Origin: a virus
Virus record (IMG/VR): IMGVR_UViG_3300030101_002870
Coordinates: 1-50,383 of that record
Strand: one strand, 5' to 3'
DNA: 50,383 nucleotides
Within the stretch, counting starts at the first letter, position 1; each line of letters starts with the position of its first letter. A program made the position numbers and the translations under genes. Positions 2,558-46,425 of the stretch are shown piece after piece. Below the pieces are notes generated by a model. It saw nothing but the letters and a program-made list of their open reading frames with translations, did no database searches and was not told the origin of the DNA.

Positions 2558-2818
2558 TTAGCTAGGGAAATCATTATTTTTCTTCTGTGTCCAATAAGTT
2601 CCTGTCAAATATCCACACGATGAACAGCCAATCTGTCTTGTATGCTCATTGAGTAAGAAAAAGGAATTATCTCCACATAAAGAACAGACAAGAACATCAA
2701 CCTCATAACATTCTACAGTGATGTTTTTCTCCTCAGAATGGGATCTTTTTTCTCTTGTGAATGGGATAACATTACTTTCTCCATGAATGGGGGGACTTTT
2801 CTTTTCTTCCATGTACAT
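2558..2818 (-). CDS. small zinc-ribbon protein
   Basis: This 86-aa protein has CSLCGD followed about 20 residues later by CSSCGY, a four-cysteine zinc ribbon of the kind found in small nucleic-acid-binding proteins. The N-terminal 40 residues are charged and probably disordered. Its first 106 nt overlap, in another frame, the end of the 174-aa gene upstream, which is unusually long for two real genes. A GCGAGG site just before the ATG and the clean zinc motif favour it being genuine. The conserved part of the upstream protein ends before most of the overlap. Confidence 0.55.
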   Translation of the reverse strand: MYMEEKKSPPIHGESNVIPFTREKRSHSEEKNITVECYEVDVLVCSLCGDNSFFLLNEHTRQIGCSSCGYLTGTYWTQKKNNDFPS

Positions 2819-3237
2819 AACCTCGCTTTCTCACCGATGTAATAGTTATGATAAGCAAGTAACGGTGTCGGTGATTTGTACTCATCAGGCATAGCCTGAG
2901 GGTGTTTCGTTACTCCTCTTGCGGTTAATTCTACAGGGGGGCATCGGAGTATGGCAAGGATTCTTTCACAAGCATGGATCTTTTCATACCTGAAAGTATA
3001 CTCTTTACATAGTGCAATACCTAAACGCCAGAGCCATTTGTAGTTTTCTACTGTTTGTCCTGCCCACAATGTGCAAGGATGTTTTTGATGAACAGGTAAA
3101 TATGGTCCCTCAGCATTATGTCGCCAATGAACAGTGCTGAGAATTTGAGTAGATTCTAATGGCATTTTAACGACGTGTTTATCGCAATGGTATTGAGCGC
3201 AAGTTTCGTGGTCATAATCTAGTAAGAATATATTCAC
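2713..3237 (-). CDS. conserved phage protein (CDKHVVKM family)
   Basis: This 174-aa protein belongs to a family I know from many tailed phages, with the signature AQYHCDKHVVKMPLES near residues 14-29, HPCTLWAG near 53-60, NYKWLWRLGIALCKEYTFRY near 65-84 and PQAMPDEYK near 113-121. Members are usually annotated as hypothetical; some are named pyrimidine-dimer glycosylase-like, without proof that I know of. The conserved body ends near residue 150, and the remaining tail overlaps the next gene in another frame. It overlaps the preceding gene by 4 nt. It may be an early nucleic-acid enzyme, but function is not established. Confidence 0.75.
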   Translation of the reverse strand: MNIFLLDYDHETCAQYHCDKHVVKMPLESTQILSTVHWRHNAEGPYLPVHQKHPCTLWAGQTVENYKWLWRLGIALCKEYTFRYEKIHACERILAILRCPPVELTARGVTKHPQAMPDEYKSPTPLLAYHNYYIGEKARLCTWKKRKVPPFMEKVMLSHSQEKKDPILRRKTSL

Positions 3238-3540: not shown

Positions 3541-3969
3541 TTAATTCATTTGACTTACTTTATTTGCTCTTTTTACTCGGTCTCGTAATTCGGTCGAGGA
3601 GAATCCATGTCCACGGCTATTGTAGTGCAGTTTTATATTTAAATCTTTATGCAGGTGTTCTCCACTTAAAGGTCTGTTTTTATACTCTTCGCCTACTATA
3701 CGGACGTTTACTCTAAGTATCTGCAATAGCTCGTGCATATCGTGTTCAGTATGATAAGGTAAAACATAATCAACATACTTTATCGCTTCTAACTGTATAA
3801 AGCGTTCATGAATAGATTGCACTGGTTTGTTTTTCCATTCACGCTCTTTACTTGGATCTATGTGTAATCCTACGATTAAATAGTCACACACCTCACTTGC
3901 CTCTTGCAGCATTAAAACATGACCGGCGTGTACTAAATCAAATGTTCCACAAGTAAATCCTACAATCAT
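3541..3969 (-). CDS. cytidylyltransferase (glycerol-3-phosphate type)
   Basis: This 142-aa protein is a small nucleotidyltransferase of the cytidylyltransferase/TagD superfamily, which transfers CMP from CTP to a phosphorylated alcohol or sugar. It has GTFDLVHAGH at residues 8-17 (HxGH active site) and a SSTELRDRV motif near residues 126-134, in the place of the family's C-terminal signature. The substrate cannot be told from sequence. It is the last gene of the tight block that also carries a glycosyltransferase and base-modification genes, so it may supply a CDP-activated donor for DNA or virion decoration; that link is inference. Confidence 0.85.
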   Translation of the reverse strand: MIVGFTCGTFDLVHAGHVLMLQEASEVCDYLIVGLHIDPSKEREWKNKPVQSIHERFIQLEAIKYVDYVLPYHTEHDMHELLQILRVNVRIVGEEYKNRPLSGEHLHKDLNIKLHYNSRGHGFSSTELRDRVKRANKVSQMN

Positions 3970-3981
3970 TACTCGCCTCCT

Positions 3982-4530
3982 TTAAACATCATCACATAAT
4001 GTTTTGATTATTTCAGAAACAGGTTCAAAAATCCATTCATTTCTGTACGTTTTATTTAAATAATCTACCCCTCGTAAAAAAACATCTTCTGCCATACCAT
4101 TACCTTGTTGCATCAAACGATAACAATGCAATACAAGCTCTAACTTATCGGCAATATCACACATCTTTTTATCTTCTTCAGTAATTTTGTGTACAGTATC
4201 ACCCACCCTAATAGATTGTTCATAAGCTCTTTCGGCTTTTACCATCAGTTCATTGATTTTAGGGTAATTCCATTTAGTCGTAGCAGGTACATCCCCCACC
4301 TCAGCTTCTGCTACATCGTGATATAATAAATGCAAGATGCAGTTTTTACTTGCGTCAGGATAAAGGGTTTGCAGAATAACTATCGCCCTCCAAGTATGAG
4401 CAGCTACATTTTGCCCATCTCCTAACTCTGGTCGTGTATGATACCGAACAACGTGTCCACCTTTTAACCGAGCGTGTAGCTTGGCTAAGTTTTCATTTCG
4501 CTGTGGTTGTCTTTTAATCCTCTTGTCCAT
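3982..4530 (-). CDS. HD-domain phosphohydrolase (YfbR-like 5'-deoxynucleotidase)
   Basis: The protein is 182 aa from the start chosen at 4530 (MDKRIKRQ). An upstream ATG at 4617 would push the overlap with the polymerase gene to 133 nt; the chosen start overlaps by 46 nt. The HD metal site is visible: H45 (VAAHTWR), H71-D72 (YHDVAEAEVGDVPA) and D138 (DIADKLEL), as in the YfbR family that removes phosphate from dNMPs. The length is close to that family's (about 200 aa). Following the polymerase and a thymidylate-synthase-like gene, it probably shapes the dNTP pool, perhaps by removing a host nucleotide that must be kept out of the phage DNA. The choice of nucleotide is not visible. Confidence 0.8.
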   Translation of the reverse strand: MDKRIKRQPQRNENLAKLHARLKGGHVVRYHTRPELGDGQNVAAHTWRAIVILQTLYPDASKNCILHLLYHDVAEAEVGDVPATTKWNYPKINELMVKAERAYEQSIRVGDTVHKITEEDKKMCDIADKLELVLHCYRLMQQGNGMAEDVFLRGVDYLNKTYRNEWIFEPVSEIIKTLCDDV

Positions 4531-6401
4531 GGTTTCTCCGTGAATGTTTGTTTTGCTTCCCCCCAATTTGGTCCAAACTCTGCGTCGACTACGGAGGGTA
4601 CTTCTAGTTTGACGCAATCCTGCATTATCTCCGTAATCTTTTTAGCTTGGTCTTCACTTTCTACGGAGACATCTAGTTCATCATGTACTTGAATCATGGG
4701 AAGTATACCTTCATCAGCTAAAGCAACCATCGCAGCTTTAGTTTGATCGGCAGCACTTCCTTGGATAAGTTTATTAAGAGCCTTATAAGTAAACGCTCGT
4801 TTGATTGCAGGACCATGTTCGGCATAAGCTTCTTGGTAAGTCATTGGCTTCCAACTCCCATACTTATTTGGTTCCCATTTATCAAACCTACAACGTCTGC
4901 CTAGAACGGTACGAATCACACCTTTTTGGCTTGCTCTGTTTATAGCATAATCACTTAGCTCTCGTACGAAGGGTACTTTCTCATGATATTGAGCAAACAA
5001 CTCTTTTGCATCTTCAAACTCTAAACCTAAGCTTGCTGCCAATTTTTTAGACCCCATACCGTAGAACAACCCGAGGTTAATATCTTTAGCCTGTTTACGA
5101 GGAACCCCTACAATATCTGCTGCCATTTGGTGGAAGTCTGTTCGTGCATCTGCATTGTATTGTTCTGCAAAGTCAGAAGCCCCTCTGAAGCCCATGAGCT
5201 TGCTGTAATGCACAACTATGCGTGGTTCTTGGCTAGAGTAATCGAACGCCCCCCATAATGTGTCTTGTTCGGGTATAAATAGGCTACGTATCATTGGACC
5301 AATTTCGCCATGCCTAGCAGGGATTTGTTGAAGATTAGGGTTACTATAACTAAATCTACCTGTGACTGTGCCGCCGTCGTCAGAACGCAGAGGGTGTAGC
5401 TCAGCATGGATACGCCCATTTATCTGGTGTTTTAATATTGTATCTACAAAAGTAGTTCTTGCTTTATTAAACTCTCTAGCCTGTACAATCATTTGTGGTA
5501 TTTTGTGGGGATGGTTTGCTAAGAATCCTTTAGTAAAGCTTGGTGCTCCTGTTTTTTCTGTTTTACTATACTCTAAACCTAAAGCATCAAATGCTTTTGA
5601 TACGCTTTCAGCAGCCCATAACTCTACAGCGATACCTGATTGTTTTTTAATTTCGTCAAGTAATTTCTTTTCACGTTGCTCTAAATCAACTTTAATACGC
5701 TCGGCTTTTTCTAAATCTACACAGACGCCACGTTGTCGCATAGGTATAATCGTTTTCAATACTTTTAATTCTAGGTCAAAAATATCACCAATATCTTCTT
5801 TTATAATAAGCCCTTTAAAATGTGTCCACAAACGTAAGGTCAATGCTGCATCTTGTTCTGCGTAAGCTCCTACATAAGCAGCAGGAAGTTTGTACATCTC
5901 ACTTTTAGCATTGATACCAAAGGCCTCGGCTGCTTCTCGTAATTCTTTTTCTGATTTACGCTCTTGCAAGTAATCTCTACCAATAGCGTTTAAGGCATAG
6001 CTAAAACGATTTTCGTCTAATAAAGGGGCAACAACCATTGTGTCTACTATTCTTCCTTGGATATTTACACCTTCAGCAAGCAACCACCCGACATCATAAG
6101 GAGCGTTGTGGAAAATATAATCACGATCCTTTGAACATACCTCTTGCAACCACCTGATTGTTGTTTTGGGGTCAAGATTAGAACCTAAATCATGTCGTAT
6201 AGGAAAGTACCACTGGTCACCTTCTACCGCTACAGCGATACCTATAATATGCCCATCTTTTCTAGCCCACCCTGAACCCATTGTTGTAAGGTTAGGATCT
6301 CTAGTTTCTAAATCTATAGCTACTTCTCTAGCATGGCTAAGATCTGGATAACCATCAGGCATAACCCACTCAGTCGGGGGTTGAAATAAAGGAAACTGCA
6401 T
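4485..6401 (-). CDS. polA: DNA polymerase I, family A, with 3'-5' exonuclease
   Basis: This 638-aa replicative polymerase has an intact proofreading domain: Exo I D30/E32 (AIDLETRD), Exo II N99/D103 (HNAPYDVGW) and Exo III Y180/D184. The polymerase domain has motif A D387 (FDYSSQEPR), motif B R435-K439-Y447 (RKQAKDINLGLFYG) and motif C H573-D574-E575 (QVHDELDV). There is no 5'-nuclease domain, as usual in phages. The residue that corresponds to E. coli Phe762 is Leu443; in marine viral polymerases a Leu here has been linked with slower, more accurate synthesis. The gene overlaps both neighbours and is in the same transcript as the candidate base-modification genes. Confidence 0.96.
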   Translation of the reverse strand: MQFPLFQPPTEWVMPDGYPDLSHAREVAIDLETRDPNLTTMGSGWARKDGHIIGIAVAVEGDQWYFPIRHDLGSNLDPKTTIRWLQEVCSKDRDYIFHNAPYDVGWLLAEGVNIQGRIVDTMVVAPLLDENRFSYALNAIGRDYLQERKSEKELREAAEAFGINAKSEMYKLPAAYVGAYAEQDAALTLRLWTHFKGLIIKEDIGDIFDLELKVLKTIIPMRQRGVCVDLEKAERIKVDLEQREKKLLDEIKKQSGIAVELWAAESVSKAFDALGLEYSKTEKTGAPSFTKGFLANHPHKIPQMIVQAREFNKARTTFVDTILKHQINGRIHAELHPLRSDDGGTVTGRFSYSNPNLQQIPARHGEIGPMIRSLFIPEQDTLWGAFDYSSQEPRIVVHYSKLMGFRGASDFAEQYNADARTDFHQMAADIVGVPRKQAKDINLGLFYGMGSKKLAASLGLEFEDAKELFAQYHEKVPFVRELSDYAINRASQKGVIRTVLGRRCRFDKWEPNKYGSWKPMTYQEAYAEHGPAIKRAFTYKALNKLIQGSAADQTKAAMVALADEGILPMIQVHDELDVSVESEDQAKKITEIMQDCVKLEVPSVVDAEFGPNWGEAKQTFTEKPWTRGLKDNHSEMKT

Positions 6402-6570
6402 TACTTTTCACTTTCATCGGTTGGTTGCATTTATGACATTTAGCCCACTTATTTTTCAAATTGCGAAAAGTAACCTCCTTTGTAGCTCCACACTCACAAA
6501 CGGCGATTAGCACTTCATCTAGTTTTCCATTCGCATCTGTCTTCGAGGAAGAGGTCTGGCTCTTGGTCAT
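6370..6570 (-). CDS. small zinc-ribbon protein
   Basis: This 66-aa protein has CECG and CHKC pairs about 19 residues apart, a typical small zinc ribbon. The start at 6570 (MTKSQTSS) is preferred over 6603 because AAGGA lies 8 nt before it. It overlaps the polymerase gene by 32 nt and the preceding gene by 56 nt. It may be an accessory nucleic-acid-binding factor for replication; nothing more specific can be said. Confidence 0.55.
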   Translation of the reverse strand: MTKSQTSSSKTDANGKLDEVLIAVCECGATKEVTFRNLKNKWAKCHKCNQPMKVKSNAVSFISTPD

Positions 6571-6895
6571 TCGTTGTTTCCTTCCGAATAATTTCTGCTT
6601 CAACTAACATAAGATACCTGCGTAAATCTTGTATATCATCCAAGATACCTTCAGCTCTAGTGTCTTTTTCAGCAGCAAGAAAGATGTCATAGTTGCTTTC
6701 ATTTACTTGCTTTTCAAGCCTGTCCCACTTTCGGGCAAGCATCATAAACGCACCTACGCCACCTCTTTGTTTCCAACTGTTTCCGTAACTCTGCTCTGCC
6801 TTATGTAGTTTTGTAACATCTACTTGTGCTACTTTTTCTACGAGTGTAATCATTTCACTGTAATTATACTCGACTTTATCTGACTGAACACTCAT
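6515..6895 (-). CDS. small protein resembling nucleotide-modification-associated domain (Nmad1-type)
   Basis: This protein is about 126 aa. The region AEQSYGNSWKQRGGVGAFMM (residues about 34-53), then ARKWDRLE and a later DDIQDLRRYLMLVEAEI helix, resembles the all-helical Nmad1/DUF1599 fold found beside nucleotide-modification genes. I recognise the pattern but am not certain of the family. The start at 6895 overlaps the stop of the thymidylate-synthase-like gene by one base (TAATG), so the two are translated together. That fits a helper role in the same nucleotide pathway. Confidence 0.55.
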   Translation of the reverse strand: MSVQSDKVEYNYSEMITLVEKVAQVDVTKLHKAEQSYGNSWKQRGGVGAFMMLARKWDRLEKQVNESNYDIFLAAEKDTRAEGILDDIQDLRRYLMLVEAEIIRKETTNDQEPDLFLEDRCEWKTR

Positions 6896-7935
6896 TATGT
6901 TCTCCTCTCTAACCATTCAAGACACGCTTTACGCCATGCCCTATCGTTAATTGTTGTTGCCTCGATTATGGCTTCATCCATAAATAGTTTGTTTGTATTT
7001 TTACTTTTCCATGCTCTCCAAGATTTAATCATAGGTGTTGCTGTTGTATTCAAATAATCATTTATCGCACCTGTATCTTCAACTTTGTCATTGTATTTTA
7101 ATCTTGTTTTACTAGCCTTATTATCGCCTCCCCACCTTTTAAACCACTGACTAAGGTCTTGATCAAAAGTAGCAGGGTTATCTATTAATGGTGGAGGGGC
7201 ATAGCTTAACCCATCATCTGCTATAGTAAGATACGGCTCATAATCTAACGGCAAGTTTTCTAACTTTTGTAAGGTGTCTACATAAGCATGAAGATTATTA
7301 CTAAATTGATAGTAAATCCCTACCCGAAGTCCACACATCGCTGCCATGTACTCTAGTAAAAAAGACATATGCACAGCGTTAGCTCCGTAAGCCCCCCAGA
7401 TCATATCATTACTACGATTAACTACAGTCATATTTAGTTTGCCCTTACGAGACCAAAAATAAATCTGGGTGTTACAGGGGTAATCTTTGCCATCATTATC
7501 TTCCTGCAAATCTTCCCATGGATCCCACATCCCAATAACTGTTCTTCTATCATTTGGATAATTCCTCAGCCTATGGATAGCAGTTAATAATTGATCTTCC
7601 TTAAACCATTCTCTCCATCTAAAGCCATATGCCCCATGAAAATGTTGACCATCATCACTGTAGGTGTTTATCCTGCCATTAAACTGGCTAATCCATTCTA
7701 CATCATTACGCCCTGCTAACATCCATAAAGATTCCATAAAGTGGAAGTATGGGTTGGCATCCCTCTGGGGATAAAACAGCACTCTTTCACGGCTATCTGT
7801 GTAGGTTGTCATAACAGGGGTGGGGAACTCTAAAGCTGCCCCATTACGAGTTTGCACTTCTACTCCGTTAGTTTCTAATGCTTGTTTAGCTAGGTATAAC
7901 GCCTCGCTTACGTTTCTTGCGTGTATCGACTGCAT
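6895..7935 (-). CDS. thymidylate synthase-like enzyme, candidate dUMP hydroxymethylase
   Basis: This 346-aa enzyme belongs to the thymidylate synthase/deoxypyrimidine hydroxymethylase family. The catalytic Cys154 lies in YPCNTQIYF. The phosphate-binding arginines are in NDRRTVIGMW (R130/R131) and NRSNDMIWG (R174), and the HxY motif is in NNLHAY (H216, Y218). RSND followed by a non-LPF loop (GAYGAN) resembles T4 dCMP hydroxymethylase more than cellular ThyA (GLPFN). By hand alignment the ThyA tryptophan that keeps water from the methylene intermediate (W80 in E. coli) is replaced by Asn90, which fits hydroxymethylation. Its neighbours are a base-hypermodification protein and the DNA polymerase. 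A plain thymidylate synthase cannot be excluded. Confidence 0.85.
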   Translation of the reverse strand: MQSIHARNVSEALYLAKQALETNGVEVQTRNGAALEFPTPVMTTYTDSRERVLFYPQRDANPYFHFMESLWMLAGRNDVEWISQFNGRINTYSDDGQHFHGAYGFRWREWFKEDQLLTAIHRLRNYPNDRRTVIGMWDPWEDLQEDNDGKDYPCNTQIYFWSRKGKLNMTVVNRSNDMIWGAYGANAVHMSFLLEYMAAMCGLRVGIYYQFSNNLHAYVDTLQKLENLPLDYEPYLTIADDGLSYAPPPLIDNPATFDQDLSQWFKRWGGDNKASKTRLKYNDKVEDTGAINDYLNTTATPMIKSWRAWKSKNTNKLFMDEAIIEATTINDRAWRKACLEWLERRT

Positions 7936-7958
7936 AGTAGCCTCCTCGATGGTTGTTA

Positions 7959-9278
7959 TTATAGTTGGGTATGGTAGCCTTGCTGTGTATAGTCATAGCG
8001 CTCTTCGATTAGCGTCGAAAGCCTCGGTAAACCAAAGAACTGTAGGTTTTTATTGCAATCGATAATTAGCTGAATATTCTGTTCTGGGTGACCTTTTTCA
8101 AGAAAATGCGTTGGTTGAGTTACAATGTCTACATATTCTTGCGCTACGTTCCGCATATCAAACTTATTTAACAACCCCAGATTATTGTGTCTTATTGTTT
8201 CCCACTGTTCCTTATTAGTTAAGCCTTCATTTACTATATCACCAAACTCTTCAGGTGTGGCTGTATGGGGTATCTCTATATAATTTTTTCCAGATTTAAA
8301 TATCTCACTGTTTTTCATACCTAAATCTGTAGCTACTGGCACAGCACCTTTGATCATAGCTTCTACCGTTGTACGATTAAAGTGTGCGCCATAGTCAGAA
8401 TACTTTTTAGAAAAGCTAGGGTCTATCTGTAGCTTAGTTTCACCAAGTAATTTTAATACTTCTTCATTAGGCACAACGCCACGATAAATCATGCCATGAT
8501 CTAAAGCTACAACCCAAATACGGTTACCATTAGAATCAAAATATTTAGGTTTGCACTTATCTTTACTGGTCATATATCTATATTCAATCCCTGCCCCACC
8601 GACTACAACAGTCTCTTTTATAAATGGTACAGCACGAACCAAAGTATCTACTCGTTTCCACGCTTTAAATATTTGGATTGCTAATGCACCACTACGTTGA
8701 TCAAAATCATAACCAAAATCCCCATGTATTTTAAATGGGTTTAAGATTAACTTGCGTGGAATATCTAAATATTTTGCTGAGTTATATGCACTTTCATGAA
8801 CGCATACAGCCGCATGAAAATATTCTGAAACAGAGATAAGGTGTGGATACAACTTAGGCAAGTTGCCATCATGTATGATAGCAATGTTTTTGCTACCATG
8901 ATCATACAAATCTAACCAAGCTGTAATCTCTGTATTATCTTTATTAAGGGTAGGTACAGGTATGTGCCAGAGAACAGCATCGTATTTACTACACTTTTCT
9001 TTAAATAGCTCTCGTGCCTGTTTGCTCACATAAGGTATCTTGGGTATACCCTTCCACCCTCGTGCTTGGTGAAACTTATACCCTGTCCCACCTTCTAAAG
9101 ATGTATAATCTCCATCCCTACCTCGGATTGGTGCTCTATTAGAAACAGCACTTTTAGGAACGAGCATACAAAAATCTACTTCATGCCCTAACTCTTTTAA
9201 GCCTTTAGTCAAATACTCAGCATGGTTAATTATGCCACCGTAATCTTGTATTTGGAATAGTGTCATTAAGAACTTCAT
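7959..9278 (-). CDS. glycosyltransferase, GT4-like (GT-B fold)
   Basis: This 439-aa protein has the N-terminal glycine loop of GT-B enzymes (FQIQDYGGIINHAEYLTKGL) and a C-terminal donor site of group 1 type (RTTVEAMIKGAVPVATDLG, then NSEIF and NYIEIP). It has no membrane segment or signal peptide, so it acts in the cytoplasm. It overlaps the base-hypermodification gene by 4 nt (ATGA) and is followed by the thymidylate-synthase-like gene, which makes modified DNA bases a plausible acceptor; lipopolysaccharide or a virion protein are the alternatives. The sugar and acceptor cannot be read from sequence. Confidence 0.8.
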   Translation of the reverse strand: MKFLMTLFQIQDYGGIINHAEYLTKGLKELGHEVDFCMLVPKSAVSNRAPIRGRDGDYTSLEGGTGYKFHQARGWKGIPKIPYVSKQARELFKEKCSKYDAVLWHIPVPTLNKDNTEITAWLDLYDHGSKNIAIIHDGNLPKLYPHLISVSEYFHAAVCVHESAYNSAKYLDIPRKLILNPFKIHGDFGYDFDQRSGALAIQIFKAWKRVDTLVRAVPFIKETVVVGGAGIEYRYMTSKDKCKPKYFDSNGNRIWVVALDHGMIYRGVVPNEEVLKLLGETKLQIDPSFSKKYSDYGAHFNRTTVEAMIKGAVPVATDLGMKNSEIFKSGKNYIEIPHTATPEEFGDIVNEGLTNKEQWETIRHNNLGLLNKFDMRNVAQEYVDIVTQPTHFLEKGHPEQNIQLIIDCNKNLQFFGLPRLSTLIEERYDYTQQGYHTQL

Positions 9279-10186
9279 TCTACAGTTCCTTTCTTAAAGT
9301 TATCGTTTGATAATATATTGGCGTTATATCTACTTCTAGGAGTACCTTGTCCTAAGCGTACACGTTCGTATTTATCCCATTCACATAAGCTATGCTCAAT
9401 GGTACGCATATCTACACGAGCTATAGGCACATGAGGCTTACAATATACAGGAGCTTCTTCTAACAACAGTTGCATTTCTATATTTGCGGTGTCTTGATTC
9501 ATGCCTTTTTTAAGGTCACGCAAATGTATGCGGTTTAATCCTCGCACGGCTCCAGGACCTGCGTTAGCCCACGAGAATTGATCTTTCGCGGCTTCCAACA
9601 CAGGTGTGTAGTTGAGGTCGGTAACCACCTCGTATGACATAAAGCCTCCCCCTCCCCACCCTTTATAGGAAGCCATCGCTTGGTGGAGCTTTTGGAGGGA
9701 TAAAGATTCATTGGCAATCTTGGAAAGTTCTTCCTTTTTTTCCCAAATGGGCGCAAGAAAATAGTCAACTACTACCTCCGATTTTGGTGCTTTTAAACCT
9801 TGATTGGTGATTATATATGCACCAGTAAAAGTTCGTAACCCTTTTGACAACCTGTCTTCAATCAGTTGCTTAGTTTTATTTTTATCCCACCCCTCATCTT
9901 CGTAAACCCATTTATGGGCATCGGCAAACTCAGTTGTGCCAATCATACGAAATAAACAGCAGTTAAAAATAATTTCACCATGTGGACGGTTGTGGTTTGG
10001 GTTAGTCCAATTCTCACGCATCCACACAGTTACTTTATCATTTTCACGAAAAGGGTTTGTAAACTTGTACTCCTGAAGAATTTTATCTTCTGTCCATGGT
10101 GGTATCTCGTCGGCTACCCTACGTTGGTAAATAGAATGTCTTTCATTTATCCAACCAAAGTATCTTTCTACAGCTTCGGTATCCAT
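9275..10186 (-). CDS. putative DNA base hypermodification protein (HMUDK_hel-like)
   Basis: This 303-aa protein matches the helical domain family described in thymidine-hypermodification operons (5-hydroxymethyl-dU DNA kinase helical domain / glutamyl-putrescinyl-thymine pyrophosphorylase-like). Signatures in order: INERHSIYQRR (13-23), PWTEDKILQEYKFTNPFRE (30-48), FTGAYIIT (120-127), GFMSYEVVTDLNY (181-193), WANAGPGAVRGLNR (206-219) and CEWDKYERV (268-276). No P-loop is visible, so a separate kinase would be needed if the described chemistry applies. An AAGGAG site precedes the start. It leads a run with a glycosyltransferase, a hydroxymethylase-like enzyme and the DNA polymerase. Confidence 0.82.
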   Translation of the reverse strand: MDTEAVERYFGWINERHSIYQRRVADEIPPWTEDKILQEYKFTNPFRENDKVTVWMRENWTNPNHNRPHGEIIFNCCLFRMIGTTEFADAHKWVYEDEGWDKNKTKQLIEDRLSKGLRTFTGAYIITNQGLKAPKSEVVVDYFLAPIWEKKEELSKIANESLSLQKLHQAMASYKGWGGGGFMSYEVVTDLNYTPVLEAAKDQFSWANAGPGAVRGLNRIHLRDLKKGMNQDTANIEMQLLLEEAPVYCKPHVPIARVDMRTIEHSLCEWDKYERVRLGQGTPRSRYNANILSNDNFKKGTVE

Positions 10187-10197
10187 AAAACTACTCC

Positions 10198-10866
10198 TTA
10201 AAATGGTATGTCTTTATAAGCATCTGTTTCTACTAATTTTATAGCTCCTGCCTTTACAGCAATTTTAATATCTACCCCACCTCCTGGAGAAGGATCTAAA
10301 GCACGAAGTTTTTCCATAGCTTCAGCTACAGTAGTGCATCCCATAATAACTTGCATATTGCGATAACGATTTGTACCTGAACGGATTGGGGGGTCTACCA
10401 TGAGAGGAACTATTTTAGCAGTTTTTTCAAAACGAGGGCGTACCTCTTTTTCTGCTTTTTGAGCTTTATTATTAAATTGATCTACATTAATTGTAGTAGC
10501 GTATGGGGCATCGGTGTCATTCATTTGGTTTTCCTTTTTCCATGGTTTAACACAAAACAGCACAACTTCATGAAGCTTCTGTGCCGCTATCTCTTTATTC
10601 TGAAACTTATTTTTCATGTTTCGGTATGTAGTAAGGTCAGTAACAAACCTTTGGTGAGCTTTTTTACTGTTGAGTAAAATGCTGAGCCATGTACCTTCAA
10701 GCTCTTCTTGTTGCCAGTTATCTATTAACTGTCTTGGTTCTTTATCACTGTAAACCATACTATGTTGGTCTACATATTTGCAGTCTTTCATAGAGGCTAA
10801 CGAAGTAAAAGACAGCACTTGGTAAGGGCTGTTCTCATTATTACTGGTACATATCGCATAGTGCAT
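10198..10866 (-). CDS. hypothetical 222-aa protein
   Basis: No family is recognised. The protein looks soluble, with an N-terminal half containing W and Q/E-rich helices, a basic middle (KAQKAEKEVRPRFEKT) and a glycine-containing C-terminus (SPGGGVDIKI). It sits directly upstream of the base-hypermodification gene with an 11-nt gap, and downstream of the palindromic promoter region 10891-10944. Its ATG follows an AGAAAGGG ribosome site. By position it is the first gene of the modification/polymerase transcript and may belong to that pathway. Confidence 0.6.
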   Translation of the reverse strand: MHYAICTSNNENSPYQVLSFTSLASMKDCKYVDQHSMVYSDKEPRQLIDNWQQEELEGTWLSILLNSKKAHQRFVTDLTTYRNMKNKFQNKEIAAQKLHEVVLFCVKPWKKENQMNDTDAPYATTINVDQFNNKAQKAEKEVRPRFEKTAKIVPLMVDPPIRSGTNRYRNMQVIMGCTTVAEAMEKLRALDPSPGGGVDIKIAVKAGAIKLVETDAYKDIPF

Positions 10867-10890: not shown

Positions 10891-10944
10891 GGTAGTGTTC
10901 ATATTCTAGTATACGAACACTACCAAGACAACATTTACTTTATC
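10891..10944 (-). promoter_or_regulatory. site D: GATAA-N8-TTGTC element with 10-bp palindrome around the -10 box
   Basis: On the minus strand GATAAAGTAAATGTTGTC (10927-10944) is followed 13 nt later by TATACT (10908-10913). The TATACT box lies in the 14-bp centre of a perfect inverted repeat with 10-bp arms GGTAGTGTTC (10891-10900) and GAACACTACC (10915-10924). The geometry is that of a promoter covered by an operator. It drives the genes starting at 10866, including the modification genes and the polymerase. A hairpin terminator is the alternative, but no T-run follows. Confidence 0.6.
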
Positions 10945-17191: not shown

Positions 17192-17518
17192 GTCTTTCTC
17201 CACATGGGTATATTTTACTTTACTTTATATAGTGTAAAAACAAAAGCAGTAACTTATCCTTTACTATCTCCACTATCTTTAGGGGTTTTTACTTTTATTA
17301 ATAGGCACTAAAATTAAAAGAATGACCAATAAAATAAAGTCCAATTTAGTCGCGCGGACACGAAAGTTGAAGATATTGTATATCGTATATTATAAAATGT
17401 TAAAATTTTAAAATAATCCTATCGATCTTTTTGCTCTATATAACAAACCAGATAAAATAACGGTTGTCTACTACAGGGCTGTATAATAGAATTAATGTAC
17501 CCAATAGAAAGAGGGCGA
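17192..17518. other. AT-rich divergent intergenic region, possible origin
   Basis: These roughly 327 bp separate the leftward replication genes from the lone rightward helicase gene. They hold promoter site C on the plus strand, a TATATA box on the minus strand near 17225-17230, a 12-bp palindrome TTAAAATTTTAA near 17400, a run of ATAT-rich sequence (about 17370-17415), and an isolated GC island TCGCGCGGACACG near 17350. Such an AT-rich, promoter-bearing spacer beside replication genes is a reasonable replication-origin candidate. No known iteron set is visible. Confidence 0.35.
17445..17487 (+). promoter_or_regulatory. site C: GATAA-N8-TTGTC element with TATAAT box
   Basis: AAACCA is followed by GATAAAATAACGGTTGTC (17451-17468) and, 13 nt later, TATAAT (17482-17487). 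It is the same element as sites A, B, D and E but on the plus strand, and it points at the only plus-strand gene. Transcription from this box would start near 17494, which makes an in-frame ATG at 17495 leaderless and supports the ATG at 17519 as the true start. Confidence 0.6.
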
Positions 17519-18958
17519 ATGCGATACAAGTTTAAATTCAAGCCATACGAGCATCAACTCAAGGCTTTAGAAAAATCTTGGAATAAAGAGTATTATGCTC
17601 TTTTTATGGATATGGGTACAGGTAAATCTAAAGTTCTCATAGATAATATTGCTATGCTGTACGATAAGGGTGAAATAGATTCTGCCTTGATTATTGCACC
17701 AAAAGGTGTGTATAGAAACTGGGAACGCAAAGAGTTACCAACCCATTTGCCCGATCATGTAAAAGCGAACATTGTTACATGGTCACCTGAAAAAACAAAA
17801 AAGAAACAAGAAGAATTAAACACCTTAAATAAAATAACAGATGACCTACAAATATTCCTTATGAATGTAGAAGCGTTGTCTACTAAACGTGGGGTTGAGG
17901 TTGCTGATAAGTTTTTACTATGCCATAGGGCAATGCTTGCTGTAGATGAAAGCACTACTATAAAATCACGAACAGCGAATCGTACAAAGAGTATAATAAA
18001 ACTTGGCAAAAACGCCCCTTATCGTAGGATCCTTACAGGTTCTCCTGTAACTAAATCACCTCTTGATTTATATACACAATGTGATTTTTTAGAAAACAAT
18101 GTATTAGGACATACTTCTTTTTGGACATTCCAAAACCGCTATGCTAAAATGGTGCGGAAAAATATGGGAGCTCATTCTTTCAACCAGATTGTAGGATATC
18201 AAAACCTAAGTGAGTTGAATGAATTAATAGAAGAATTTAGTTTTAGAGTACGCAAAGAAGACTGTTTAGATTTACCTGACAAAGTATATACTAAACGATC
18301 AGTAGAGCTAACACCTGAGCAACGTAAATTGTACGACCAATTAAAACGCAATGCACTCGCGATTATTGAAGATGAAGGTATGATTTCTGCCTCTACTATA
18401 CTAACTCAACTATTAAGGTTGCAGCAAGTTTGCTCTGGTTTTGCAAAGCTAGAAGATGGGCGAATGATCAAAGTTCCAAGTAACAAGCTAACTGAGCTTA
18501 TGTCTGTATTAGAAGAAACAGATGGTAAGGTAATTATATGGGGAAACTTTACCCACGACCTTGAAATAATAGGCGAAGCTCTTGCCAAGCAGTATGGTGC
18601 TGAATCTGTAGAATTATTTTACGGTGGGACTCCAGGAGAAGAAAGGCAGTTAATTGTTGAAAGGTTTCAGAATAAAGACGATCCTCTGAGGTTCTTCGTT
18701 GGGCAACCACGCACAGGTGGCTACGGTCTGACTCTGACAGAAGCAAAAACAGTGATCTATTATAGTAATGGATACGATTTAGAAGTTAGGTTGCAAAGCG
18801 AAGATAGAGCTCATCGCATAGGTCAAGTAAACAAAGTTACCTATATTGATATTGTTGCAGATAAAACAAGTGATGAAAAAATACTTAGAGCTTTGCGTAA
18901 TAAGATAGATATTAGCTCACAAGTATTAGCTGAAGGTTACAAAGACTGGATAATCTAA
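17519..18958 (+). CDS. SNF2-family superfamily 2 helicase/ATPase
   Basis: This 479-aa protein counts from an ATG with GAGGG just upstream. N-terminal motifs are a Q-like region PYEHQLKAL, Walker A MDMGTGKSK (30-38), motif Ia IIAPKGVYRNW, motif II DEST (143-146) and motif III LTGSPVTKSPLDLY. The C-terminal helicase domain has motif IV VIIWGNFTHDLE and the SNF2 signature SEDRAHRIGQ (motif VI). SNF2-like phage proteins move on duplex DNA and may strip proteins, aid recombination or start replication. It is the only plus-strand gene and has its own promoter (site C), so it is expressed apart from the leftward units. Its stop lies one base from the end of the convergent small gene. Confidence 0.93.
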   Translation: MRYKFKFKPYEHQLKALEKSWNKEYYALFMDMGTGKSKVLIDNIAMLYDKGEIDSALIIAPKGVYRNWERKELPTHLPDHVKANIVTWSPEKTKKKQEELNTLNKITDDLQIFLMNVEALSTKRGVEVADKFLLCHRAMLAVDESTTIKSRTANRTKSIIKLGKNAPYRRILTGSPVTKSPLDLYTQCDFLENNVLGHTSFWTFQNRYAKMVRKNMGAHSFNQIVGYQNLSELNELIEEFSFRVRKEDCLDLPDKVYTKRSVELTPEQRKLYDQLKRNALAIIEDEGMISASTILTQLLRLQQVCSGFAKLEDGRMIKVPSNKLTELMSVLEETDGKVIIWGNFTHDLEIIGEALAKQYGAESVELFYGGTPGEERQLIVERFQNKDDPLRFFVGQPRTGGYGLTLTEAKTVIYYSNGYDLEVRLQSEDRAHRIGQVNKVTYIDIVADKTSDEKILRALRNKIDISSQVLAEGYKDWII

Positions 18959-20008: not shown

Positions 20009-23000
20009 TTAAGTTAGAGACATAATTCCTTGTTTAGCATTTTGTCGTTTTTCTATAGCAGCAAGCGTTGGATCAAATGGAAAAAGATCACTAGCTGAAG
20101 CTGTTTGTACATTTGGTGGTTGCATATTTGCGACAGGTGCAGGAGGTGGAACATTGTTCGTAGAAAGGTTAGCAACCTGATTTGTATTTACAGGAGGTAA
20201 AATTTCAGGTGAAACAAAACTTTGTTCATTTTCTGGAGCTTTAAAAATAATTTCCCTTGTAGTATCTGGATCAACATCTGGTCGAGCTCCTATAGCCTCC
20301 ACTCCTACATTAAATAAATAAGTGTTTAATCTATTGCGTACAGGTTCTGATATACTGAGATTTTTAGTTCCTACCGCAGTTAAATCTTTTGCAACTTGAG
20401 GATTAAACATCATTTCTTTAAATAACATCTCTGTTCTAGCACTACTTTGTTGTCTTAAAAATCTTGAAGCAATATACCCTATGGCTGCTCTTGGTCCTAA
20501 TCTTCCTTCTTGTACGGCAATGAAACGGTTAGAGATTCCTGCAGGAGAGGTTCCCATTTTAGCAGATAAAGCAGTAATAATATCGTCAGTAGTTGTACCT
20601 GCTCCTTTGGGTAGACCTGTTGCCATTATTCTTTCAGCTGCGTCTGCGATAAGATAAATATTGTTTAAATGATCTTTATCAAAAGCTTGATTTAATGCAA
20701 TTTCGTTATCTACAATCATTTGTTTAAAAGCTTTAGGGTTAGCAAGAACATCAGTTCCTGCGTAATTTTTAAACAATCTATCTGTTATTGCAGCTCGAAA
20801 AACATACAAAGATTCTTCTGGTGATAAACTGTCAGAACCTTTAGCTGCAATCTGTTTTAGCTCTTTCATAATAGTGGGGTTTCTTATTGCATCATCAAAT
20901 AATGATTGAGGATTGCTATTGTTCATAGCCTTTGCAATAGATTTAAATAACAAATTAGAGTTAACAAGTTTTGTTCTAGTAGCTAACTCAGCTTGTCTAG
21001 CTAATACATCGCTTACTAATTGATTAGAGTTGCTGAGTTCATCAAATAAACCGAGCTCTGTATAAATATCTCTGTTTGTGTTAAGATGAGTGTTTATTTT
21101 ATCTGCATTTAAACCTTTCGCTCCCATTCCTGCTTTACGAACTGCATCTAAAACAGCATTTTTCATAAACCTCATTTTATCTGGGTCATCTGCAAAAAGA
21201 CTCATATATGTTTTAGCGGCATTAGAATCACTTAAAAAAGCTTTGGCAACTTTTTCAGGAGCTAATGTATAACCTCGTTTACCTCCAGGACCATCTATTA
21301 CCTTGCTTACGAAACTATTGGAAAAAGGTTCAAGAACAGTTTCATTCCAAACTGTTTTAAACTGTTGAAATTTTTCTGAAGTTCTGCCATAAGAAGTACC
21401 CATATTGTCTAAAGTTTTCTTTAGTATAGCTAGGGTTCTTATATCTTCGCTTTTGTTATTTGCTACAGCTTTGCCAAGAGCATCACTTGTTTGACTAGAA
21501 AAACTTTTCCAATCTTGAAAAGATATACGTTTTAGTTTAGTGTTTAAAAAATCTTTAACTAAAGGGTGCAGACCTTTAAAAGATAACGCTTCTTCTCCTT
21601 GGCGTGTGAGAACTTGTTTTTTCAAACTTTCTTGTGCTTTTACTAGAGCATCATTACTGGCTAACTGATCAGCTTGATTTATTTTTAATTTTGTAGCGAG
21701 TTTTTCCGCAGAATCTTTAGCTGCTTCTTTAGCTGCAATAATACTTTGACGAACTTGTTCTCCTGTTGCCGCTTTGTCTGTCATAAGGGGAAAAGCCCCA
21801 TCAGTTTGATGGCTTAAAGTATCTAATTGAAAAGCTAAATCACCTTTTTCAGCATCTAACTTGCCTACTGTAGAAACGTAAGAGTTCGTAGCTTCATCAT
21901 AAATGTATAAAGGCGCATCTAAAGTAGGGTCGCCTTTGCCTTTTATTAAATAGTTTTTAAAATTAGCAATACTTTCTAACACATTAAATTTACGACTCAG
22001 GTTTTGGCGTGTAAACTCCGCATCTCCTTTTCCTTCTAAACGTGCTTGGGTAGCTAAAAAAGGAGGGTCTAATGTTTTTTCTCCTGGAGTAAGAACTATG
22101 GGTTGATCGTCAGGAGCAAAAGGTCCTAGTGTAGTTTCTATTTCTTCAGCTCTTTGCCAATTCGCAGCTCCCTGATCTGTTCCTTTAGCAATAGCTACCT
22201 GACTTTCTAACTGACTTTGAGCTTTTCCTCCTCCAGGACTTCGGATACCTGTTGCCAGAGCAGCGTCATCTATAGCTGTAAGAGCAGGTCTACCAAACCA
22301 AGTAAAAGCTGTTTTAACTTTAGGTGTTATTTTAGTTCCTAAATAAAAGGGCGCACCAACACCAACTAATCCACCGATACCTGTATTTGTGCCAAATACA
22401 TCTTCTTCAGCTTGCATTCCTACTCCTGCTAAACCTGCTCCTCCAAGTTCTATAGCTGTAGTTGTTCCAGGACTTGTTCTAAAAGGGGCTACTATACGAT
22501 CTAAATAAGGAGCAACTTTATCTGCTACAGTTTTAACACCACTTCGAGCTGCTTGATAAGCAGGAGCTGCTGTAAGATTAACTAATTGAGCAAGTTTCGC
22601 TTGCATGGCTAAAAAAGGAACAGCTATAGCTATATTTTCTCCTGATTTGCGACCATATCGTTCAATAATTGCATCTTTATCTGTAGAACCTATTCTTTCC
22701 CCTGCACCATACTGTAACAAATAAGGGATTATTATTTTTTGTGCTTCAAAATCATTTGACATAAAAAGCCTTTTCAAAAAATCTTGATCTATTGTATCTT
22801 TGTCTATAATTCCTGCTGCGGTCAATGCGTTATCAACTTGATTTAAAGCAGCATCAGGAAGTCCCACTATAAAATCGTTTATTCCTCGGTTAATTCCCCC
22901 AATACTGTTATCTATAAAATCATTAGCAGCAAGAGCAATTTGTCCACCTATGGTAGCCCCACCGTATTGCTCCTCATATATTTCTTTTAAATCTCTTTTC

Positions 23001-23197
23001 TCACCTGTCTCAGGATCTATTCCCAAACCTGTAAGTCTAGCAGGTTGTAACTCTACTTGAGCAGTAATATCTGCTTGAGGCACTATCGCATCAGGATTTT
23101 TCTGATCAGGCTTGCGAGGATCTAAAAATTGAAGGTTAGGTTGTGTGCTCTCTATTTCGTCTAGTGTAGGAGCACCTAATGATAGTGGCTCTGCCAT
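20009..23197 (-). CDS. large internal-virion-type protein (1062 aa)
   Basis: No catalytic domain is recognised. The protein is mostly helical, with an N-terminal proline-rich stretch (SLGAPTLDEIESTQPN), a middle with several alanine/glycine hydrophobic stretches (for example GTTTAIELGGAGLAGVGMQA), and long charged helices. Its size, position after the tail genes and lack of enzyme motifs fit the ejected internal proteins of podoviruses. The C-terminal 70 residues are P/N/A rich and probably flexible. AAGGAAAG precedes the start. The two genes before it look like members of the same functional set. Confidence 0.6.
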   Translation of the reverse strand: MAEPLSLGAPTLDEIESTQPNLQFLDPRKPDQKNPDAIVPQADITAQVELQPARLTGLGIDPETGEKRDLKEIYEEQYGGATIGGQIALAANDFIDNSIGGINRGINDFIVGLPDAALNQVDNALTAAGIIDKDTIDQDFLKRLFMSNDFEAQKIIIPYLLQYGAGERIGSTDKDAIIERYGRKSGENIAIAVPFLAMQAKLAQLVNLTAAPAYQAARSGVKTVADKVAPYLDRIVAPFRTSPGTTTAIELGGAGLAGVGMQAEEDVFGTNTGIGGLVGVGAPFYLGTKITPKVKTAFTWFGRPALTAIDDAALATGIRSPGGGKAQSQLESQVAIAKGTDQGAANWQRAEEIETTLGPFAPDDQPIVLTPGEKTLDPPFLATQARLEGKGDAEFTRQNLSRKFNVLESIANFKNYLIKGKGDPTLDAPLYIYDEATNSYVSTVGKLDAEKGDLAFQLDTLSHQTDGAFPLMTDKAATGEQVRQSIIAAKEAAKDSAEKLATKLKINQADQLASNDALVKAQESLKKQVLTRQGEEALSFKGLHPLVKDFLNTKLKRISFQDWKSFSSQTSDALGKAVANNKSEDIRTLAILKKTLDNMGTSYGRTSEKFQQFKTVWNETVLEPFSNSFVSKVIDGPGGKRGYTLAPEKVAKAFLSDSNAAKTYMSLFADDPDKMRFMKNAVLDAVRKAGMGAKGLNADKINTHLNTNRDIYTELGLFDELSNSNQLVSDVLARQAELATRTKLVNSNLLFKSIAKAMNNSNPQSLFDDAIRNPTIMKELKQIAAKGSDSLSPEESLYVFRAAITDRLFKNYAGTDVLANPKAFKQMIVDNEIALNQAFDKDHLNNIYLIADAAERIMATGLPKGAGTTTDDIITALSAKMGTSPAGISNRFIAVQEGRLGPRAAIGYIASRFLRQQSSARTEMLFKEMMFNPQVAKDLTAVGTKNLSISEPVRNRLNTYLFNVGVEAIGARPDVDPDTTREIIFKAPENEQSFVSPEILPPVNTNQVANLSTNNVPPPAPVANMQPPNVQTASASDLFPFDPTLAAIEKRQNAKQGIMSLT

Positions 23198-23207
23198 GTG
23201 CTTTCCT

Positions 23208-25883
23208 TTAATTAAAAGTTATATCTTCACCAATTTTTAATCGAACAGGACCACCTGCTCCCCAAATTTCTCTGTTATTTGGAAAATTTCTTTTTGCCTC
23301 TTCGTTTGACATAATCATAAACTTACCGTCAAAGTTAGCTCCATTCGCTGTTGCTATTTTCAAATAATCAAACTGACCATAGCCACTGTATAAAAATGGA
23401 TCGTTTGCTGTACCCTCAGGCATAGATTGAGTTTCAACATAATTTTCTCCATTTAAAGTAGCAATAGAGTAGTTTAGGTCATTTTGTAATATGCGAACAA
23501 GTTCTTTTAATCTTACAGCAGACATTTTAGAAGATTGAAAAAATCCTCCAGGTTCAATAGCTAACTCTTGTATTAGCTTTTGTTCCGCAACTGCATATCG
23601 GTCACTTAATGCAAGAGCTCGTGCTAACGCCCTACCAAACAAATTAAGATTTTGATTGCCCCTTGCAGTTTTAGAATAATCTAACAACGCATTGTCTAAA
23701 TTTTGATCTGTCCAACCGCCTATAGCATTACTTACAAAAGATTTCACACTATTTACAGGACCAACAGAACTAAATACAGATTGTATAACTTCATCTGCTG
23801 CGTTCAGTGCTTGGTTTAATGAAAGAATTTTTCGTTGTTCTAGGGCATAAGCAGAAGGAGTAATCAACATTGGGTTAATACCTGTTGGTCCTAGGTCTTG
23901 AGCTAAAGGATTTCCTTTTACAAATTGTCTACTGCCACCTGCTACAGGACTACTGACAGGGTTATTGTTACTGTCAAAATACTGATACTCAGGAGCTTCT
24001 TGTTTAAACGCATTATTGACTGAAACAGAAGCTCCTGCAGGAACAAGAACTTTCGGAGTACCATTAGGATTTTTTACAATAATTGGTTTATTTGTATTGG
24101 GGTCGATTTTTTCTACCAACTGCCCATTTACAATTTCCATTTCAGTCTCGTAAATGTCTTGTCCTTTAATCCTACTACCACCTTCAACAGGACCACTAAC
24201 AGGGTTACCGTCCCTGTCGAAATATCTATACTCAGGATTTACCATTTTGGTCATAATAGTTTGACCTGCTCTTGGTCCTCGTTTAAAGGTGATGGTAGTT
24301 CTACCAACTGTATCAGTAGAAGTTGAAAAGAGATCTTTAGTTCCTACAATAAAACCATTGGGAGCAGCGATAAAATCAGGTTTACCATCTGCTCCTACTT
24401 GGTTCCCACTTTCAGATATCTTATATATACCGTTGTGGAAAATTCCTGCTACTTCCCTCAAACCTGACTCTGTGGTAGGATCAGGAATCAGTATAGTTTT
24501 AGCTGTAGCGCCAGAATAATCTATTTTCCCTGCTGCCTCGTAAGCTCTTACAGTTGTGCCATCCATAGGAGTAAAGCCCTTAGGAATTTTTGAGAATTTA
24601 CCATCATCAAATTTTTGAGGACCATCATCAGTTCTACGCACACCTATTACGGTCACTGTGCCATTATCGTTTACTCTACCCCAAGTCTCTGTAGCTAGTG
24701 TGCCGTATTGATTATTAGCAGCATAGGCTTGCTGTATTTTAGTATTTATCAACGCTATGTTTGTTTTTTCTAAATCAACTCCTTTACTTAAAGCGTCAGC
24801 TCTTGCATTAAAAAGGAGTTTATTTAAATCATTTTCATTTTTAGCTGCTTCTTCTATAGAACTCATAGCTATCGACAACTTTTGACCTTCTAGCTGTGCT
24901 TTCTCCGCTTGCTCTGTAGTATAAGCAAATTCTTTTTGTTCACGATCTAAGGCTGCTTTTTGAGCAGCAACTTTACTTAGGTCAGTAGCAAACTCAGGTA
25001 CAGGTTTTGTTAAAGCCTGTAACAAAGATCCTGGAGTTTGAGCAACTCCTGCTCCATATTTAGCTAGTGCTAAAGAGCCTTGTGTTTCTAAATTTTGTTG
25101 ATCTTGGTCACCGAAAAACCCAATTTGTTCAGCTAATATGTCTTCTTTACTTCTTGGTTCTTTTAAAAACGGATTTAATAACTTTTCGCGTTCAGCCATC
25201 AATGTTGCAGAATCTGTTTGCCCTGTTTTAGCATATGGCTTTAAAATATCCATAAATTTCTCAGTTCCTGCTGCAATGTTACCAAAATTCATTTCTGCAT
25301 AATCAGGCAAATTACTAAGGTAGTTTGTTTTACCTAAAGGATTGGGAACCATTAGAGGGTCGTGATAACCCCCATGTGCAAAATTAACTGGTGTTTCTCC
25401 CATAGCTATACGCATTGCAGCCTCATCCGATCCAGGAGCTTGGATTGGAGAGGCTTCATTAAAATTTACAGTGGACTGCCGACCTCCTGCCATTGGAGCA
25501 TCTGCAATACCTCCAGGAGCTGCGTCGCTCGCTTGGGCTTGCACCATTTCAAGAATTTGAAAGTATGGTTGCATGACTGCTAATACTGATTCAGGAGTTT
25601 TCTTAGCATCTTTTTCACCAACTAACTCCGCTAGTTCACTTACTCTAGCTTTTATAGGCTGTTCATCACCCCTTATGGAGTTTATAACTTCCTCCATATT
25701 TTCTGCTGCGTCTACTTTTTCGTACAAATTTTCAACAGTATTTTCAAATTGTTTCATACCCTGTTGAATTATTGGGTCACTGTTTTCTGGCACTAGTCCA
25801 GAGGTAATGCCTGTCCCTACTGCATTAGGCGCAGAGGGAGACATACCTTGAGCAACCATAGGTCGCTGTGCAAATTCTACCAT
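23208..25883 (-). CDS. large internal-virion-type protein (891 aa)
   Basis: An unrecognised large protein. The N-terminal 150 residues are helical and acidic; residues about 170-200 hold a short GGYHDPLM segment. A module reading EYRYFDRDGNPVSGPVEGGSR is duplicated about 75 residues later as EYQYFDSNNNPVSSPVAGGSR, so the middle (about 545-655) is repeat-built. The C-terminal 200 residues are helical. Its start codon follows the stop of the 458-aa gene directly (TAA-ATG). Probably a virion protein ejected with the DNA or part of the tail interior. Confidence 0.6.
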   Translation of the reverse strand: MVEFAQRPMVAQGMSPSAPNAVGTGITSGLVPENSDPIIQQGMKQFENTVENLYEKVDAAENMEEVINSIRGDEQPIKARVSELAELVGEKDAKKTPESVLAVMQPYFQILEMVQAQASDAAPGGIADAPMAGGRQSTVNFNEASPIQAPGSDEAAMRIAMGETPVNFAHGGYHDPLMVPNPLGKTNYLSNLPDYAEMNFGNIAAGTEKFMDILKPYAKTGQTDSATLMAEREKLLNPFLKEPRSKEDILAEQIGFFGDQDQQNLETQGSLALAKYGAGVAQTPGSLLQALTKPVPEFATDLSKVAAQKAALDREQKEFAYTTEQAEKAQLEGQKLSIAMSSIEEAAKNENDLNKLLFNARADALSKGVDLEKTNIALINTKIQQAYAANNQYGTLATETWGRVNDNGTVTVIGVRRTDDGPQKFDDGKFSKIPKGFTPMDGTTVRAYEAAGKIDYSGATAKTILIPDPTTESGLREVAGIFHNGIYKISESGNQVGADGKPDFIAAPNGFIVGTKDLFSTSTDTVGRTTITFKRGPRAGQTIMTKMVNPEYRYFDRDGNPVSGPVEGGSRIKGQDIYETEMEIVNGQLVEKIDPNTNKPIIVKNPNGTPKVLVPAGASVSVNNAFKQEAPEYQYFDSNNNPVSSPVAGGSRQFVKGNPLAQDLGPTGINPMLITPSAYALEQRKILSLNQALNAADEVIQSVFSSVGPVNSVKSFVSNAIGGWTDQNLDNALLDYSKTARGNQNLNLFGRALARALALSDRYAVAEQKLIQELAIEPGGFFQSSKMSAVRLKELVRILQNDLNYSIATLNGENYVETQSMPEGTANDPFLYSGYGQFDYLKIATANGANFDGKFMIMSNEEAKRNFPNNREIWGAGGPVRLKIGEDITFN

Positions 25884-27257: not shown

Positions 27258-27258
27258 G

Positions 27259-46027: not shown

Positions 46028-46425
46028 TTTGTTAATCCTTTCTGTTTCTCATACGTTCGTAATCCACCTAAACCAAGCATACCCATCAACACCGTCATTA
46101 AACTGCCCATATCAAACTCAGGTAAAGGTGGGATAGTAGCTCCTGAAAGACCTACTCCAAATAAAATTAAGGGAGTTAAAATAAAATGATATAGTAAAGC
46201 AACACCACACGTCCATCCCACAAAAGGTCGCCAACCACCTTTAAACAAACTACCTGATGCAGCTTCTGCTTTATTAACTTCAATTTGTGCAAGTTGTTGT
46301 TCATGAGATAATTTATCAGCCATAGTCGCTAACTCATGCGCCAATGCAGCTTTTTGGTCTTTATCTTCTATAACTTTATCTAATATCCCAGTAACAGGAC
46401 CTATAAGATTATTTAGCAGACTCAT
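46024..46425 (-). CDS. holin, 3-TM family (GTA_holin_3TM-like)
   Basis: This 133-aa membrane protein has an N-terminal helix, then the family-typical GWRPFVGWTCGVALLYHFIL (residues about 64-83), a second hydrophobic part up to GVGLSG, and a third at SLMTVLMGMLGLGGLRTYEK near the C-terminus. This arrangement is that of the 3-TM holins of gene-transfer agents and many phages. It would let the GH108 endolysin reach the wall. The start lies inside the end of the oxygenase gene (17-nt overlap). Confidence 0.88.
   Translation of the reverse strand: MSLLNNLIGPVTGILDKVIEDKDQKAALAHELATMADKLSHEQQLAQIEVNKAEAASGSLFKGGWRPFVGWTCGVALLYHFILTPLILFGVGLSGATIPPLPEFDMGSLMTVLMGMLGLGGLRTYEKQKGLTK

Follow-up and report, generated by a model that had tools for sequence, protein, structure and literature searches.

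The window analyzed here, from a marine phage, is the whole of an IMG/VR virus contig (IMGVR_UViG_3300030101_002870; 50,383 bp, classed as linear, completeness unknown), and our subject is a cassette on its minus strand, at 6515-10186, in which a glycosyltransferase (GT) gene lies between the gene of HMUDK_hel, the helical domain of 5-hydroxymethyl-2'-deoxyuridine (5-hmdU) DNA kinases, and that of a thymidylate synthase homologue. In the direction of transcription the order is a 222-aa orphan, HMUDK_hel, the GT, the synthase homologue, two proteins of 133 and 77 aa, the family A DNA polymerase (polA), an HD-domain hydrolase and a nucleotidyltransferase (Table 1). Within 6515-10186 neighbouring genes overlap or abut; those of HMUDK_hel and the GT share 4 nt and those of the synthase and the 133-aa protein 22 nt. 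The list of open reading frames (ORFs) bears out the genes, place and order given in the initial annotation of this DNA, all on the minus strand. The junction of the cassette with polA, also proposed there, was right as to the order, but the 77-aa ORF intervenes and polA itself lies outside the 6515-10186 interval; the gene list contained the core of the cassette but overlooked two genes next to it, for the HD hydrolase and the nucleotidyltransferase. The identical gene order was met again in dozens of independent contigs, far beyond chance. The contig of one relative was binned to a Flavobacteriaceae metagenome-assembled genome, a single case (n=1) that is too weak for naming a host.

Table 1. 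Features of the cassette and its surroundings in the window, in the direction of transcription.
Feature	Coordinates	Strand	Basis or remark
Terminator-like hairpin, 14-bp stem	10891..10924	-	In the gap separating the genes for the DUF932 and 222-aa proteins; consensus match only
Conserved 222-aa protein	10198..10866	-	Upstream of HMUDK_hel; 80-member cluster
HMUDK_hel, stand-alone, 303 aa (5-hmdU DNA kinase helical domain)	9275..10186	-	PF18723
GT (GT-B/GT4-like, 439 aa), proposed to act on 5-hmdU in DNA	7959..9278	-	Glyco_trans_1_4 and structure model
dUMP-hydroxymethylase-type thymidylate synthase homologue, 346 aa	6895..7935	-	PF00303 1.5e-23; phrog_5131 4.4e-109
Conserved 133-aa orphan protein	6515..6916	-	Always between synthase and polA
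77-aa ORF, may encode a zinc ribbon (CEC...CHKC, two Cys pairs)	6370..6603	-	Between the 133-aa ORF and polA; sequence inspection
Family A DNA polymerase, proposed 5-hmdUTP incorporation	4485..6401	-	PF00476 3.7e-63
HD-domain (YfbR-like) nucleotide phosphohydrolase	3982..4617	-	PF12917 1.6e-8
Nucleotidyltransferase (RfaE-II/TagD-like)	3541..3969	-	PF01467 1.4e-17; TIGR02199 1e-21

The core proteins of the cassette

The 303-aa protein had been labelled as HMUDK_hel-like, and in the Pfam comparison suggested along with that label PF18723 matched it with an E-value of 4.1e-50 and 171 bits (cut-off 25). The family was right, although in M6-type phages such a protein is the separate helical partner of the P-loop kinase and not the kinase itself. 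Its structure model (pLDDT 91.6) matched, in a viral library, viral HMUDK_hel proteins, the 5-hmdU DNA kinase of phage SP10 and proteins like AADT, the amino acid:DNA transferase (PF18724). The SP10 kinase, of 637 aa, was matched along nearly all of HMUDK_hel, which covers part of it. Invariant core residues are kept in homologues paired with a kinase and in those paired with a GT. Two other identities were considered and rejected. Endonuclease III was the top PDB match but not a significant one (E 0.95), and the amino acid:DNA transferase of phage PaMx11 is gp46 (PF18724, with a PDB structure named 'glycinyltransferase'), separate from gp50 (PF18723). A profile comparison of the PF18723 and PF18724 families gave a weak match.

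For the product of the following gene the GT4-like label holds as well. Glyco_trans_1_4 matched with an E-value of 2.9e-5, just under the Pfam cut-off, and the AlphaFold model (pLDDT 87) has a confident GT-B fold that found GT-B/GT4 enzymes in the PDB with E-values down to 5e-13, the closest being BshA, HepE and MshA. The T4 DNA alpha-glucosyltransferase (AGT) was found with an E-value of 6e-10 and a TM-score of 0.59 over the query, equal to the best matches. The motifs HDGN, FKxWKR and HFNRTTxE are invariant or nearly so in the family, which argues for an active enzyme. At the sequence level the single GT had no match in the PDB and its family profile matched only HepE (E 0.001), while a direct homology search against 50,697 phage records gave no match, T4 AGT and beta-glucosyltransferase included. 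PF20691, the profile of the TAGT family to which the DNA glucosyltransferase of T2/T6 belongs, does not match this GT; it does match c14, a protein of other slot types described below.

The label of hydroxymethylase-like thymidylate synthase was confirmed by the matches in Table 1. The protein is 43-47% identical, over the full length, to the enzyme of phage M6, and the alignment shows that it keeps the catalytic Cys154 and a dUMP-type Asn186 at the position that selects between cytosine and uracil, where the CMP hydroxymethylase MilA has Asp. In the T4 dCMP hydroxymethylase the determinant of C versus U is Asp179 (PMC6400193). Given the full-length homology to M6, the catalytic Cys and a selector that is Asn and not Asp, 5-hmdUMP is the likely product.

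Exchange of the slot and search for the kinase

We have compared 78 distinct loci carrying both HMUDK_hel and the synthase. The slot between the two contains the GT described above in 34 of them, a TAGT together with a radical SAM/SPASM enzyme in 25, a family named c19 (323-364 aa) in 13 and another named c39 in four; in two it is empty, and both have this GT further upstream. FkbM methyltransferases are found beside some c19 and c39 slots. No Pfam match allowed naming c19, a second GT-B-like protein, as a GT; its motifs agree with those of the GT family, and the profiles align over the full length, but weakly (20% probability, P 0.001). Profile searches found no family for c39. The radical SAM/SPASM enzyme shares the slot with the TAGT (L033:7959-8993) and in contig L156 stands beside the GT (L156:6835-7794); its role may be to change the sugar once this is attached. 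There, a 235-aa protein without Pfam match lies between the two (L156:6138-6845); it has a GTGSSGT motif and looks sulfotransferase-like by eye.

The contigs L042 and L043 are 96.4% identical over a 6.9-kb stretch that stops with the final base of HMUDK_hel. From there L042 continues with the GT and L043 with c19, and an identity of 90-95% returns where the slot gene ends. The only other large difference in the compared stretch is a gene located between polA and the HD gene in L043 (L043:11304-12128) and absent from L042, whose product joins a nucleotidyltransferase to a cupin like mannose-6-phosphate isomerase. Its presence together with the c19 slot would suit a switch to another sugar donor. 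Distant GT homologues (33-41% identity) in other backbones are still neighbours of HMUDK_hel or the synthase: in three contigs with other layouts (L156, L157 and L159) the homologue adjoins or nearly adjoins these genes, and in L153-L155 it adjoins the synthase at the contig edge.

Among cultured phages, the isolate LuckyBarnes of Brevibacterium combines HMUDK_hel, GT and synthase with no kinase match, like the window phage, but with two TAGT-family GTs instead of a GT4-like one and with a longer synthase (517 aa). In this synthase (L106:2822-4375) the C/U selector is Asn, and a long additional segment extends the C-terminus. The Microbacterium phage Alakazam carries a TAGT besides HMUDK_hel and synthase; another of its genes is annotated as 'thymidylate kinase' and has no Pfam match. 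In Golden, HMUDK_hel adjoins a P-loop kinase of another family. The neighbourhood comparison that the initial annotation had proposed has thus given a recurrent order, a slot with swappable GTs, no kinase and, in LuckyBarnes, a cultured phage of similar arrangement, which together make a much stronger case than the window by itself.

In the M6-type pathways 5-hmdU is the start, is phosphorylated in the DNA and then receives an amine or amino acid, and M6 DNA carries such 5-hmdU-derived bases (PMC6449724). M6 has genes for a radical SAM enzyme, the kinase gp54 (PF18748), HMUDK_hel gp55, Nmad5 gp56, the synthase gp58, an HD protein and the polymerase. PaMx11 has AADT, a flavin enzyme, an acetyltransferase, the kinase, HMUDK_hel, synthase, HD protein and polymerase. 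To look for the missing members, we have translated the window and related virus records of 26-69 kb, several of them longer than the window, in six frames and searched them with profiles. PF18748 had no match in the window or in 28 related records; as controls, M6, MP1412, Vi01, Sonora and RHph_I65 scored over the cut-off, and PaMx11 weakly, at 17 bits. A profile built from four authentic kinases matched none of 25 records, and PF18751 was likewise not found. PF18724 was absent from the window, and in three relatives gave only sub-threshold stretches, one of them inside HMUDK_hel. PALP, a pyridoxal phosphate (PLP) enzyme, and Radical_SAM were absent from the window, and no flavin tailoring enzyme was seen there; radical SAM is present in the relatives with a TAGT slot and in L156. 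The earlier remark that neither a P-loop kinase nor a PLP enzyme is visible is upheld by these searches. In M6, PaMx11, Sonora and RHph_I65, which have both the PF18748 kinase and the PF18724 AADT, the kinase gene either directly precedes that of HMUDK_hel or is separated from it by one small gene, a place that here is occupied by other genes.

A proposed route to glycosylated thymine and its alternatives

We consider it probable that the operon yields a sugar-decorated thymine analogue. Specifically, the synthase homologue would turn dUMP into 5-hydroxymethyl-dUMP, as its homology to the M6 and PaMx11 enzymes and its dUMP-type Asn suggest, the phage polymerase would incorporate 5-hmdUTP, and the GT-B enzyme would use a nucleotide sugar to glycosylate the 5-hydroxymethyl group directly in the DNA, replacing the P-loop kinase and the amino-acid attachment step of M6-type phages. 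HMUDK_hel, elsewhere the separate or fused helical partner of the kinase, would be retained as a DNA-binding module that presents 5-hmdU to the modifying enzyme. The predicted base is glycosyl-5-hmdU, and exchange of the slot (GT4-like, TAGT with radical SAM, c19 or c39, optionally with FkbM) would put different sugars on the same base, presumably for evasion of host nucleases and base-excision defences. Manufacture of 5-hmdU as a nucleotide, its incorporation and its decoration by the GT outside the kinase/amino-acid route had already been suggested in the initial annotation; the comparative evidence now speaks for them, with the product itself a prediction. We give even chances to a broader view in which HMUDK_hel is a general 5-hmdU-presenting module with interchangeable enzymes, a P-loop kinase in some phages and a GT-B enzyme or TAGT in others, leading to combinatorial, base-J-like sugars, some of them probably FkbM-methylated or altered by radical SAM enzymes.

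Several observations weigh against direct glycosylation. The GT falls under the Pfam cut-off, its model is no closer to T4 AGT than to many GT4 enzymes that act on small molecules, and its acceptor is not readable from the fold. The HMUDK_hel model has no significant PDB match, Endonuclease III being the best, and base presentation is therefore something that we infer. Both the window and its relatives are linear metagenomic contigs of unknown completeness, and a kinase could be in the missing parts, although records of up to 69 kb and the usual kinase position are without one. Besides, a divergent kinase could escape detection because PF18748 scores that of PaMx11 so low, and in L085, a relative whose GT has moved to another place, a generic, unrelated-looking P-loop kinase is encoded elsewhere in the record.

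These last points are the ones that favour the known amino-acid route, with kinase and AADT missed through incompleteness or divergence and the GT as a passenger or a further layer. We regard it as unlikely: none of the four profiles for its enzymes scored over cut-off in related records, the usual site of the kinase upstream of HMUDK_hel holds other genes, and the same slot swaps the GT for another family of DNA GTs. Quite improbable is a cytosine-derived base, a T4-like glycosyl-5-hydroxymethyl-2'-deoxycytidine (5-hmdC), for which the synthase homologue would be a dCMP hydroxymethylase. MilA is among its nearest solved sequence relatives, with the same score as thymidylate synthases, the T2/T6 TAGTs act on 5-hmdC (PMC13216743), and the authors of LuckyBarnes predicted a dCMP hydroxymethylase for its synthase; but the Asn186 selector, the identity along the full length to the synthase of M6, a phage with 5-hmdU-derived bases in its DNA, and the co-occurrence with HMUDK_hel speak for uracil. 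Slightly less probable still is a GT acting on a host surface, a phage protein or a small molecule from an incidental position in the operon, as would suit the usual GT-B/GT4 acceptors (lipids, small molecules, polysaccharides) and the resemblance to BshA, HepE and MshA, since the gene overlaps that of HMUDK_hel, the linkage to HMUDK_hel and synthase is conserved in unrelated backbones, and TAGT, c19 or c39 replace it precisely between constant flanks.

Relation to known systems and flanking genes

The glycosylation route that we favour would be a new variant of thymidine hypermodification. The pathways of M6, YuA, PaMx11 and Salmonella phage ViI share with the window phage the dUMP-hydroxymethylase-type synthase, HMUDK_hel and the HD hydrolase in the same order, and M6 and PaMx11 also the family A polymerase; the difference is that in the window phage no kinase, AADT, PLP or flavin enzyme was detected and a GT fills the slot. 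Like the T4 alpha- and beta-glucosyltransferases and TAGT, the GT would be a phage enzyme acting on a 5-hydroxymethyl pyrimidine after replication, and it shares the GT-B fold with T4 AGT; however, there is no sequence match to the T4 enzymes, the predicted target is 5-hmdU and not 5-hmdC, and the GT gene is linked to that of HMUDK_hel, for which no use in T4 is known. The predicted end product, a sugar on 5-hmdU in DNA, is of the type of kinetoplastid base J (beta-D-glucosyl-5-hmdU), but here 5-hmdU would come from the synthase homologue before replication and not from JBP dioxygenases acting on DNA, the GT is a different one, and presumably a large share of the thymines is modified. Bacillus phage SP-15 also has a sugar on a base that replaces thymine, with GT and nucleotide-sugar genes (PMC5977210). 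Its base is a glucosylated and phosphoglucuronated dihydroxypentyl-uracil with a five-carbon side chain, encoded with a large carbohydrate cluster, and no HMUDK_hel slot is described there. The claim of novelty rests on a 2019 statement that glycosylated 5-hmdU was unreported in phages and on negative literature searches that did not cover key primary papers. If the proposal is correct, many marine phages would have a new class of glycosylated thymine, which would matter for defences based on restriction, CRISPR or DNA glycosylases (one glycosylase directed at modified thymines, of the Brig2 type, has been described; PMC13160076), and their enzymes could serve for sugar-labelling of 5-hmdU. 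The role of HMUDK_hel becomes testable, and LuckyBarnes, and probably Alakazam, allow a direct nucleoside test.

Regarding the flanks, the 222-aa gene, whose product had no Pfam match over cut-off, is probably the first of the unit, and the hairpin upstream of it a possible boundary. The 133-aa protein had been taken for Nmad1, but there was no Pfam match, and no Nmad match singly or across the 27 members of its family; it is a conserved orphan. An HD gene beside the synthase is found in M6 and PaMx11 too. The nucleotidyltransferase is accessory and possibly supplies an activated sugar or polyol donor. Its universal co-occurrence with the GT was rejected, as it is present in only some of the phages with a GT or c19 slot. 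Downstream, in the same direction, a gene at 2713-3237 has a strong match to phrog_624 and a weak one to Pyr_excise (pyrimidine dimer DNA glycosylase). Three large ORFs (1062, 891 and 463 aa) without PHROG match lie beside a tape-measure-like ORF at 20009-27275, and a 2-oxoglutarate-Fe(II) oxygenase (phrog_81, 1e-27) is encoded at 46409-47083, distant from the cassette. The sole large gene on the plus strand, at 17495-18958, codes for an SNF2-type helicase, and a similar helicase adjoins HMUDK_hel in L156.

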